From: Cloeon dipterum
Taxonomy: Eukaryota; Arthropoda; Insecta; Ephemeroptera; Baetidae
Reading direction: 5' to 3'
Length of the DNA stretch: 64,000 nucleotides
Assembly (NCBI RefSeq): GCF_949628265.1
Contig: NC_088790.1
Location: 19,162,545 to 19,226,544, forward strand
Shown: positions 39,177-44,689 of the stretch, in pieces
Layout of the letters: each line of letters opens with the position of its first letter
How positions within the stretch are numbered: position 1 is the stretch's first letter
Made by a program: the position numbers and the translations under genes
The notes under the pieces: model-generated
The model's input: only the letters and a program-made list of their open reading frames with translations
Databases searched by the model: none
What the model was told of the DNA's origin: nothing

Positions 39177-42100
39177 CTATTCATCTTGACCCATACTTTG
39201 CTGGTTTCGGCGCCAACTCAGGTATGTCTTGAGATCATACTCTTCTGTTACAATGTCCAGCTTTGATTCACCAAATATAGTGAGGACAGCAACGCCGTAC
39301 GATCCAATCAGCTCCTTCAGCTTCTCGTCGGTTGTTCCTTCAGTCAGAAACCTGGCCAGCTTCAGCAATTTGCCCAGCACCCACGCAAACTTTGGGTCGA
39401 CCTCGCACTCAGGAAGAGAAAAAGGGTCAGACAGCTGGAGGGCTGATGCTGGGTCGGGACAGCGTTCAAGGAAGTTGAGAGTCAGAACTTGTCCGACTTG
39501 TGCCGACACGTGAGGCTGGATTATCGAGGCAACAAGTAGGCGCCATTGGTCTGTGCCCAGGCTCTCGTAAATCAGGTTGTACGGGGAGCACAGATCCCAC
39601 TCTTCTTCTGGTTCACCTTGTACGCCTGGAGGAACAATAGAAATCATTAGAAAAAATTTATAATAATGGCCTGTGAACAGGTCATCACGATTTTAAAATG
39701 CAAATGGTGCGGCGCTGCATCCTTTTTAGACGCTGAGTTCATTCGTTAGTAACTTCAACTCGATGTAAGGTGATTAAATGTGTAGAGTCAATGTGAATAA
39801 GACTTGTTTTTAAAAATTTCATATGCGTATAAATTGCTGTTTCTGGACATTTTTTAATCACCTTTTGTTGCGACCTTTGGCCTGCCACTGACCTGAGAGG
39901 CGCCATGACCAGGTTCCTGGACCGACAAGTCAACCATTCAATGTACCAAAATTAGCATTTCTTTTGAAAGCGTGAGACGAGCAATGTCTAAGTTTAACGC
40001 AGTTTTCGCGCCTTCAGCGCCCTAATTGTCATAAAATGCTTACGGACTGGCTGGTGCGCACAGGAGTTGCTGCTCAGCGGAGAACAGATAACTTTCTGTG
40101 AGTCAGCCCAAATGCAGCATCCTCGATACTTGGGGGAGGTGCATTTGGCTGCCGGGCTGAAGGCGCGAAAACTTTGTTTAACTTGCTTGTCTCACGCTTT
40201 AAAAAAAGCCAATGTTTGTACATTGAGCAATTTTTGACTCGTCGGTCCAGGCGCCTGGTCAAGGCGCCTCACAGGTCAGTGACAGGCGAAAGAGTGTCAC
40301 GACACCTATCAATAATTCTCAAATTTGAGATACAAATATATGTTGGTTTAATATGCAAAAAAAGAAAATGAATATTACAAACCTGCCAATTCTGTTGCTG
40401 ATTCAGGAACATGGCTCTCCTCCTCGTTGGAACTTTCTTCTTCACATTGGTTATCAGCGGCAGTTATTGAGTCACTGGGCAGTTCACCATCATCTTCTGG
40501 CAGTACAAAGAACTTGAAGTTGGTTGGGTCTATCTTGTCCAGGTCTTTGTTGTTCACCACTTTGATGTCTTCAACTGGTATTTCTGGATCAATTTCTTCC
40601 TCTTTCACTTCTTTAGAATTAGCTTCTGCTTCCGGTTCTTTTTCTTTTCCTGCAAACTCTTCAGTTTGCAGTCTGGTTTCAAAGTCATCCATTGGCACGT
40701 CGTAGTCGTCAGACTCAAAGATGTTTGATGCAAGTTCCTCTAATTCACTCCCCAGGGACTCAGATTCTTCTGCCTGAAATGAAAAAAATGTGTTCACTTA
40801 TCCAACAAAGTAGTTGGCTGAGTACATTCTTTGCGTGCACATTGCATTGTGAGAGTCTGAGCCATGATTTGGGGTCGAGTGTAGGCTGATACGCGTCAAC
40901 GTTTCAATCTCGTTCATTGCAATAATGGATTCATTTTGATTTGGGAGGAATGCTTGCAGCAGTCCGAATGGCTACTTGCTGATTTGCATCTTTCCAGAAT
41001 GCAAGAAATTATTTTACAGAATTAATGGTAGATTTTCAATAAAAAAAAACGGATGCAGGAACATGAGCTGGACTAGGCTTCCTCTAACAATGCTCATGCG
41101 CTCATGTTTTTTGTTCGCGATATTATTTGGACGCTAAGTTTTCGCGAGTTATTCGCTATCAGGGGGAAGCCATCTCAAAAGAGATGAACCAAAACATTTT
41201 TTGCTTAAAATTTTATGTTGCACAATAGTTTGTTTATAACTCAATGTATTGTTTTATTAGGATGTGTGGCAAGAATGAAACATTTTAAAGCAAAAGTGTC
41301 TTGCACTGAAAAGCAAATCATTTCCTTGCCTGATAAACAAAATAAAAAGTTCAGTCATTAGAAGTTAGAAGTGCGAATCATTTGTAAAAATATCCCACCA
41401 CTGTTTTGTAAGTTCATAAATTTTTACTAGGTGATCAAATGAAAGTGAAACCTCATCATTTATAATTATAGCTGATAAAAATTAATAATGCAATTTGCGA
41501 AGCGCAGAGACGTTAATTCAATTCAAGTTAAAGAGGCGTAAATAGTCTAGAGACCCAAGAAAATCTGATTGAATTGCAAGATTGGAAATAATTACATTTG
41601 CCAATGCAGTGTCCTCTTCGCCCTCTTTTTTTGCTTCAGAACCTTCAGCTTGCTCCCCAGTTTCTTTGTCCTCCTCATCTTCACTGATATCTTCAATGTG
41701 TTCCAACGATTCAGAGGTAGCAACACTCTTACTTTCGTCTGCACCTTCTGGTATGTCCGCTTCAGCAGTCTCATTTTGGCTTGCATGATTACCAGTCGCG
41801 TCTGATTGAGTTTCAAAGAAGTGCTTAAACTCCTCTAAGTCCACACGAATGCAGTGTTTGGCAGCGTATATCTTCAGCTGTCGAAGGGAGCTCAGACTGC
41901 TGCTGCCGCTCTCGACAAATATCAAGTTACTGTCCCCATTTTTCTGCACCTTCCAAGATTTTGGCAGGCTATCAGGGGTGACCAGCCCAGTTGGATTATC
42001 CAGCTTTGGTGGGGAAAAAGAGGTTGCCAGCGAGTTCCTTGTTTGCCGACCAGTTAATGCAGTGGGTGATTCCTTCAATTTCTTCGCATCCTTGACTGGA

Positions 42101-42749
42101 GAAACTGAATGTTTTCGTTTCTTTGTGAGAGAGCTGCTAGCAGAGTCTCCAGACTTGTTCCTGCATCTCTCAGAGAGGACAGACTTAACTTTTGGCGGCC
42201 TGCCCCTCTTGGCCTTAACTGGTGCGACTGACATTTGAGCTGCTGATGCTGCTGCTGCTACCTTGTCTTTAAGCGACTCTTTGTTGGCCTTATCATTTTC
42301 TTTAGCTTTCCTAGCAACACTCTCTTGAGTGTTTTTGGTTGCTTCTTTAATTCTAATCAGAGCCGCAATTTCTTTTTTGAAAAGGTGTTCAGCTTTTGAT
42401 TGAGAAACGCTATACACCTCCGGATCCAGTGTCAAATTGTGCTCCTTGCAGTAGCGATCAATCTCAACTCTTGAACGCAAAAGGGTTTCGTCAGGGGCGA
42501 TGAGAACGATGTCCTTGCGACCTGCACTCGCGCCAGTGGTTCTCAGGTAAACTCTTCGACGCCAACCATCTTTTCCCAAAGGTTGTGTGATGTGTTTGAC
42601 TTTGCACATCACAGATGCATTGTATGGTTTACTGTAAAGGAAAATCAATTTGATACTAGTCGTATTTTGTCAATGATAAATGATATGATCACAAAACCAT
42701 TATTTATTTTAATCATTGGTGTGTTTCATTACCTCAGTCTCTTGCTCAT
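39177..42749 (-). CDS. MBD4-like protein (methyl-CpG-binding domain plus HhH-GPD glycosylase-like domain)
   Basis: MBD4 removes thymine or uracil opposite guanine at CpG sites and links base-excision repair to DNA methylation in the nucleus. Exons: 42749-42733, 42631-41596, 40773-40383, 39625-39177 (TAG), giving 630 residues with matching phases. Order: a methyl-CpG-binding domain (about 25-80; GWRRRV, SAGRKDI, RSRVEIDRYC); an AT-hook KRGRPPK (147-153); a basic Ser-rich stretch; a weaker second MBD-like segment (about 228-278; LPKSWKV, SLRQLKIYAAKH, VDLEEF); an acidic linker (about 300-481); and a C-terminal domain (482-630) resembling the MBD4 glycosylase (DQWRLLVASII, FLER, ELIGSYGVAVLTIF, DLKTYLSW). 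By hand alignment the helix-hairpin-helix loop lacks about two residues, and the catalytic Asp position (human D560) appears to be Glu610. Activity is therefore doubtful. Reading through the donor at 41595 gives a truncated 376-codon form. Confidence 0.8.
39871..40300. repeat. Long inverted repeat (arms about 145-150 bp, spacer about 130 bp)
   Basis: Sequence 39871-40020 reappears as its reverse complement at about 40153-40300, with roughly 80-90% identity by eye. Matching blocks include CACTGACCTG, TGACCAGG, CCTGGACCGAC, AAGCGTGAGAC and AGTTTTCGCGCCTTCAGC. Spacer 40021-40152 does not pair. It lies in the last intron of the MBD4-like gene, so the pre-mRNA would contain a long stem. Likely origins are a MITE-like element or a local inverted duplication. 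I see no transposase and no clear target-site duplication. Confidence 0.8.
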
Positions 42750-43395: not shown

Positions 43396-44689
43396 ATGAT
43401 GTCGAATTCGGCAAGCTCGCCGGCGCTGGCGGCAAAGGCTGCCGACCAGGAGCTGAACTCCATTCTCAGTGAGATGAACCAGGGGCATGCTGAAGCCGCC
43501 CTAAGAAGTCACGCAACTTCACTTCCGACCACACCGACTGGTTAATAAGATTTGACTATATCTACACAGTTAACTTATGTTGCACTTCTATTCGGAAAAA
43601 AATTTATTAGTCATTAATGTTGACCTTAATTTATTTATTCTTTCAGGTGCTCCAAAAAATGGGGATCTCTTTCGTAACTCTGCGTCCAAGATGGAAAGTG
43701 TAAAAAACTGGGGGATTTCCACTTATAAGTGCACTCGGCAACTGGTATTAGAGAAGCTAGGCAAGAGCTCTCGGACTGTCGATACTGGTAAGGTGGCGAA
43801 TTTCATTTTATAAGTTACGGTTTGTTAATTCTCACTTTATCGTAGAGCTGGAAAGTCAAATCGAGCTGCTGAGAGACACACAGCGAAAGTATGCAAACAT
43901 TTTGCGTTTAGCTCGAGCTCTTTCAAGTCATTTTCATCATGTTGTGCAGACACAGGTTTGAATGAGCTTTGGATGGTTCAGTCAATTTATTAAAAAAAAA
44001 TTTTCAGCACGCTTTGGGTGAAGCTTTCTCAGAGTTAGCCCAAAAATCACCTGAGCTACAGGAAGAATTTCTTTATAATTCTGAAACTCAACGCTGTCTG
44101 ACCAAAAACGGAGAGGCCTTGCTTAGTGCTCTGCATTTCTTCGTCAACTCAGTCAACACATTATGTCACAAGACCATCGAGGACACTCTCCTCACCATTA
44201 GTCAATATGAGGCTGCTCGCATTGAGTTTGACGCATATCGCACGGACTTGGAGGCCCTTGGTCAGGCCCCACGGACAGACCCCCGTATAGAGGAAGCCCA
44301 GCAGAATTTTGACTCTCACAAAACCAAGTTTGAGAACCTTCGTGCAGATGTTGCCGTTAAACTGAAATTCCTGGATGAAAATCGGGTAGGTTCTCTAAAA
44401 TGTCAACAATTTGTTGATGTTTTTACCAGTGATTTTTATCTTTATTTTCCATGGTAATTTCTGAAGCACTAATAATTGAAGGCTAAATGTTATTCTCGCT
44501 GTTTGTCAAAAATATAATTTTGAAAAATATTTTTTGTTGCAGATTAAAGTGATGCACAAACAGCTGGTGCTGTTCCACAACGCGATCTCTGCCTACTTCT
44601 CTGGCAACCAGCAGGCGCTGGAATCAACGTTGAAGCAATTCAACATCACTGTCAAACCACCAAGCAATCCTTCATGGCTTGAGCACTGA
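43396..44689 (+). CDS. Arfip: Arfaptin (AH/BAR-domain protein)
   Basis: Arfaptins are Golgi-associated BAR-superfamily proteins that bind Arf, Arl1 and Rac GTPases and curved membrane. Exons: 43396-43540, 43647-43787, 43846-43955, 44008-44385, 44543-44689 (TGA), 306 residues, close to animal arfaptins (about 340). The N-terminus up to about residue 75 is low-complexity. The AH/BAR domain follows: [69 protein letters not shown] and [17 protein letters not shown]. It ends PSWLEH, the usual arfaptin C-terminus. Two successive ATGs (43396 and 43399) are possible starts. The intron at 43956-44007 is only 52 nt. A polyadenylation signal lies at 44849. The match to the family is extensive. Confidence 0.95.

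Follow-up and report, generated by a model that had tools for sequence, protein, structure and literature searches.

A candidate MBD4-derived pseudo-glycosylase among paralogues lacking the catalytic Asp in Cloeon dipterum

On present sequence evidence, a gene of Cloeon dipterum is one of three paralogues that lack the catalytic Asp of the DNA glycosylase MBD4, and is not the canonical MBD4 of its genome. With a probability of roughly 0.72, it would encode an MBD4-derived pseudo-glycosylase, in which the methyl-CpG-binding domain (MBD) half binds CpG DNA and the HhH-GPD glycosylase fold is kept without excision. The gene lies in a window of 64,000 nucleotides (C5:19162545-19226544), which is the whole stretch of DNA analysed, within a 190-Mb assembly of 10 contigs. 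Its two Asp-less paralogues, C5a and C5b, share its contig, and a further MBD4-type copy is found on contig C1.

Gene structure

The gene was predicted as four exons on the minus strand, which, once their GT-AG introns are removed, give an uninterrupted reading frame of 630 codons plus a stop codon. Exon 1 (42733..42749; window positions) holds the start codon within 17 in-frame nucleotides, with the ATG at 42749 and a GT donor past 42733. Exon 2 (41596..42631, with an AG ahead of 42631 and a GT past 41596) is open throughout and carries the MBD, a basic linker with an AT-hook, and the start of an acidic linker, to which exon 3 (40383..40773) is wholly given over, while exon 4 (39177..39625) encodes the entire MBD4-type glycosylase-like domain, assigned by homology and predicted fold, and the stop codon. 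The first-pass annotation had read these exons as one gene, and this reading appears to stand. An alternative in which they are split over two genes, one for an MBD protein and one for a separate glycosylase-like protein, draws on exon 3, a linker without a significant match to anything, and on a joining of exons that rests on sequence, not cDNA; it is considered extremely improbable against the matching intron phases of the exons and the two paralogues, in each of which an MBD likewise precedes the glycosylase-type domain on a single strand, over about 4.4 kb and 2.4 kb.

Intron 3 contains a foldback element of nested inverted repeats at 39875-40292, with outer arms of 64 nt at 86% identity, which is probably a small terminal-inverted-repeat transposon. 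An exon encoding an Arfaptin domain (PF06456, E 4.5e-43) adjoins the gene at 43966-44457 on the plus strand.

The C-terminal domain

Exon 4 had been assigned to the MBD4 glycosylase by hand alignment, and phmmer, profile comparison, and predicted fold now agree that it encodes a domain of this type. The phmmer match of exon 4 to PDB MBD4 (E 1.5e-4) was limited to residues 13-73 of 149, and a profile built from 40 Asp-bearing rows, with the three C5 copies excluded, scored 36.6 bits over residues 14-140 of 149. Conversely, a profile of the three degenerate copies alone retrieved PDB MBD4 at E 2.5e-16 with the whole domain covered, the next PDB family being the Mag2 chains at E 0.01. At E<=10, exon 4 alone had no match in Pfam or NCBIfam, PF00730 (HhH-GPD) included, whereas the C1 copy, the sole one of the four copies to match that model, did so at 31.6 bits; the hand alignment therefore caught what family scans miss.

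A single-sequence AlphaFold prediction of exon 4 was discarded (pLDDT 40.0, pTM 0.26). The alignment-based model that was used instead predicts an MBD4-type fold, an outcome partly expected given that its alignment included 38 viral rows of MBD4-type domains. In this model, Glu610 (model residue 129) is placed directly ahead of the last helix (130-147). The window domain retains the core of the fold together with the Y, D, and Y..WRR residues that the copies have in common. Its net charge is -7, compared with -3 for the C1 copy and 0 for the human fragment, so strong DNA binding by the domain is less likely; because of this greater acidity, a protein-binding role would be somewhat more likely than a DNA-binding one. 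A BFVD structure search with the window domain gave a sole match at E<=0.001, the HhH-GPD protein U5KBB0 of a granulovirus (an insect virus), which has an MBD4-like fold; this match adds nothing with regard to function.

Catalytic and base-reading positions

As set out in excerpts of PMC12073362, the bond-breaking water in human MBD4 is primed by D560, and the thymine is recognised by V448, Q449, and Y540, with Gln449 reading its edge. The corresponding columns were counted in 38 aligned viral rows, the C1 copy, and the three C5 copies. The viral rows derive from 46 loci (L030-L075) for MBD4-type glycosylase domains on IMG/VR contigs; identity to the C1 copy is 37-54% for most of these and 70% for two partial matches. 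Eight loci were left out of the alignment: L033, L040, L049, L054, and L058 as apparent near-copies, L064 for a stop within its stretch, and L074 and L075 as partial. A scan of genome contigs for prokaryotic relatives yielded 44 stretches fitting the pattern, none of which is a relative.

All 38 viral rows and the C1 copy keep Asp, Gln, and Tyr at the D560, Q449, and Y540 columns, respectively. The profile alignments bear out the first-pass placement of Glu610 (39240..39242) at the D560 column in the window gene, a column occupied by Ser in both C5a and C5b. The Q449 column holds Tyr in all three C5 copies, and Tyr540 is retained in each. The first Gly of the hairpin, present in the C1 copy and 37 of the 38 viral rows, is lost in all three C5 copies: it is replaced by Cys in C5a, by His in C5b, and, as aligned, by Leu in the window gene, where the shortened HhH loop LIGSYG (residues 587-592; 39294..39311) is as previously described. 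The predicted Asp-less proteins thus depart from the catalytic hallmarks of MBD4 at D560, Q449, and the first hairpin Gly.

The three C5 copies also have in common an Asp at the K562 column (Asp612 in the window gene; 39234..39236), where all 38 viral rows have Ala and the C1 copy has Met. It had been proposed that a conserved Asp at this residue would undo the claim of an altered active site; the Asp is indeed common to the three copies, but the profiles align it without a gap to K562, not to D560. According to parts of a small survey (PMC6838969), Y540 and D560 occur in all species studied and K562 is Leu in an aphid; the K562 change alone is therefore not telling, and those at D560 and Q449 are. 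Two further positions were dropped as evidence because active-type sequences vary there, namely R468 (Leu in 36 of the 38 viral rows and Gln in the other two) and the second hairpin Gly, at which the C1 copy itself has Asp. The L506 column was left out, the alignment being unsure there.

Paralogues in the genome

Searches by tblastn with three different members returned the same four loci, namely the window gene, C5:16.668 Mb (C5a), C5:24.458 Mb (C5b), and C1:28.345 Mb, which sets the number of MBD4-type loci at four at least, tblastn scoring the best candidates. The C1 copy (C1:28344858-28345283) groups with human MBD4 in a 15-row tree, across a 99/99 branch from the three C5 copies. No MBD was detected near it in six frames over 9.9 kb, nor at its locus in a genome-wide Pfam MBD search at E<=0.001. 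In both C5a and C5b, an MBD lies upstream of the glycosylase-type domain and on its strand (PF01429, E 5.9e-10 and 2.1e-5, respectively). A further MBD is encoded at C1:17490873-17491058, within a single-frame protein of 307 aa (PF01429, E 1.2e-9), in which Arg, Asp, Tyr, and Arg are in place.

In the 15-row tree, the window gene has a very long branch (4.18), which the tree program marked as unsure, and its grouping with the other two C5 copies may in part be artefactual; the Gln449-to-Tyr and K562-to-Asp changes are nonetheless common to all three. The dN between the window gene and the other copies is 0.90-1.07, against 0.45 between C5a and C5b. A dN/dS measure of selection failed, with synonymous sites saturated in four of the six pairs and values of 2.64 and 4.47 for the remaining pairs.

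The N-terminal half and the methylation setting

The N-terminal MBD recognised earlier in exon 2 was recovered at residues about 22-80 (42409..42585; PF01429, E 1.2e-9). By phmmer to PDB, its best match is MeCP2 (E 1.1e-6), followed by MBD1, MBD2, and the MBD of MBD4 (E 0.0011). Both arginine-finger positions are kept in the alignment, and Val stands at the Tyr of the MeCP2 "DVY". The arginine fingers and this Tyr are what we take to be the residues with roles in methyl-CpG recognition by MBDs of the MeCP2/MBD1 kind; given Val for Tyr, the methyl preference of the window MBD may be weak.

The AT-hook KRGRPPK (residues 147-153; 42190..42210) is likewise retained; when the protein was shuffled at constant composition, its core RGRP (148-151) arose in 14 of 5000 shuffles. 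A second MBD-like segment, put forward at residues 228-278 and delimited here at about 226-285 (41794..41973), is unsupported: a Pfam profile scan gave no match at E<=10, to PF01429 or any other model, and the score against a local MBD profile was 2.2 bits, equalled or beaten by 15 of 2000 shuffles; the segment is the top-scoring place in the linker, yet weak. Residues 286-480, spanning exons 2 and 3, consist of 34% Asp and Glu and form the acidic linker.

The earlier supposition that the animal methylates its DNA is probably correct. The coding sequence of the window gene has a CpG observed/expected ratio of 0.55 and a TpG ratio of 1.50, against a CpG ratio of 1.04 for the window, and coding sequence poor in CpG and rich in TpG is what gene-body methylation usually leaves behind. 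The genome encodes C5-DNA-methylase domains (PF00145; 39 exon matches), one TET-type domain, and two UDG-family matches. The PF00145 copies are dispersed over C1:5.73M, C1:37.80M, C2:34.37M, C3:6.67M, and C5:31.83M (L076-L080) as well as C2:36.86M and C4:6.64M (L082, L083). Ungapped identity to L076 is 99.8% for L078, 99.9% for L079, and 92% for L077 and L080, and L082 is 99.9% identical to L083; these methyltransferase copies look as if they were spread by a mobile element or segmental copying.

Interpretation and alternatives

In the proposed mechanism, the N-terminal half, comprising the MBD with both arginine fingers and the AT-hook in its basic linker, would bind CpG-containing DNA, and the long acidic linker would keep the C-terminal HhH-GPD fold apart from the MBD. 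This fold would have been retained with base excision lost, and most likely acts as a protein- or DNA-damage-binding module. The gene is one of three paralogues in which the MBD is retained and the catalytic Asp is gone, beside a stand-alone C1 glycosylase copy that keeps the catalytic residues with no MBD nearby. Loss of excision is held to be likeliest because the catalytic column is Ser in two paralogues, the hairpins are altered in three, and a canonical copy exists elsewhere. The first-pass annotation had offered either a glycosylase of changed chemistry or a fold turned DNA reader; the second option, understood as a fold serving as something other than a glycosylase, is favoured because two of the three paralogues have Ser rather than Glu.

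The Asp-to-Glu change of the window gene is in itself no proof of lost excision, since OGG1 D268E, as well as D268Q, retains activity (excerpts of PMC4207560). This lends something to the unlikely alternative of an active glycosylase with altered chemistry, in which Glu610 or Asp612 would replace D560 and the Gln449-to-Tyr change would shift the base preference. The new Asp common to all three copies might act in place of D560; together with the shared Tyr at the Q449 column, it looks selected rather than decayed, and the retained Tyr540 and the modelled position of Glu610 ahead of the last helix are in keeping with an active enzyme. However, the two Ser residues at the D560 column, the changed DNA-gripping hairpin of all three copies, and the position of Asp612 in a column that is Ala in every active-type viral row all argue against such an enzyme, an intact copy is at hand for the chemistry, and MBD4 D560N is catalytically inactive, as stated in excerpts of PMC12073362. 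A bolder version, in which the three C5 paralogues are active MBD-targeted glycosylases with a carboxylate shifted by two residues (K562 to Asp), a changed pocket (Q449 to Tyr), and a different substrate, e.g., oxidised or deaminated methylcytosine, having split from a canonical MBD-less T:G enzyme on C1, would be very unlikely.

Decay of the gene, with the glycosylase half under relaxed constraint and the protein working, if at all, solely via its MBD and AT-hook, is held to be as unlikely as an active glycosylase with altered chemistry. Of the copies, the window gene has diverged furthest by both branch length and dN, its MBD has lost the Tyr, and its hairpin is shortened, as decay would have it. 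Against this, 630 codons run without a stop or frameshift between good splice sites and the fold core persists with its shared residues, although the saturated synonymous sites put selection itself beyond measurement.

Comparison with known systems and significance

As in MBD4 (MED1), a methyl-CpG-binding T:G glycosylase, the window gene combines an N-terminal MBD with a C-terminal MBD4-type HhH-GPD fold. It differs in its Glu at D560, Tyr at Q449, shortened hairpin, and AT-hook, with Tyr540 kept, and in that a separate canonical MBD4 is present in the same genome. AT-hooks are also found in MeCP2, the closest PDB match to the window MBD, from which the window protein is set apart by its Val for Tyr and its glycosylase-like domain. 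The C1 copy, a glycosylase for which no MBD was detected, resembles plant MBD4L and MBD-less MBD4 (as covered in a review) in this respect; the window gene shows the opposite arrangement, with the MBD kept and the catalytic Asp lost. The MBD is described in parts of PMC6838969 as only sporadically paired with the MBD4 glycosylase.

A non-excising HhH glycosylase paralogue has a precedent in S. pombe Mag2, which exists beside the active Mag1, as is proposed for the C5 copies beside C1; the DNA binding of Mag2 is weak, and its supposed role is to protect abasic sites (excerpts of PMC4433238). A Mag2-like way of working may by analogy apply to the window gene, for which the fold and the paralogue are observed and the loss of excision is what we infer. 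Mag2 belongs to the alkylpurine branch, unlike the MBD4-type window domain; it is not known to carry an MBD, and its inactivity probably rests on other residues. The top-ranked open-access literature matches contained no report of an Asp-less MBD4 pseudo-glycosylase family, which does not imply its absence from print.

MBD4 is the textbook fusion of a reader to an eraser or repair enzyme, and a review treats the question of how its MBD is coupled to repair as still to be answered. The two roles appear to have been divided within one genome, in which the catalytic copy has no detected MBD and the three copies with an MBD lack the catalytic Asp. Should the C5 proteins bind methylated CpG but not excise, they could shield such sites from the active enzyme or recruit it, and would offer a natural test of the role of the glycosylase fold when it is not cutting.
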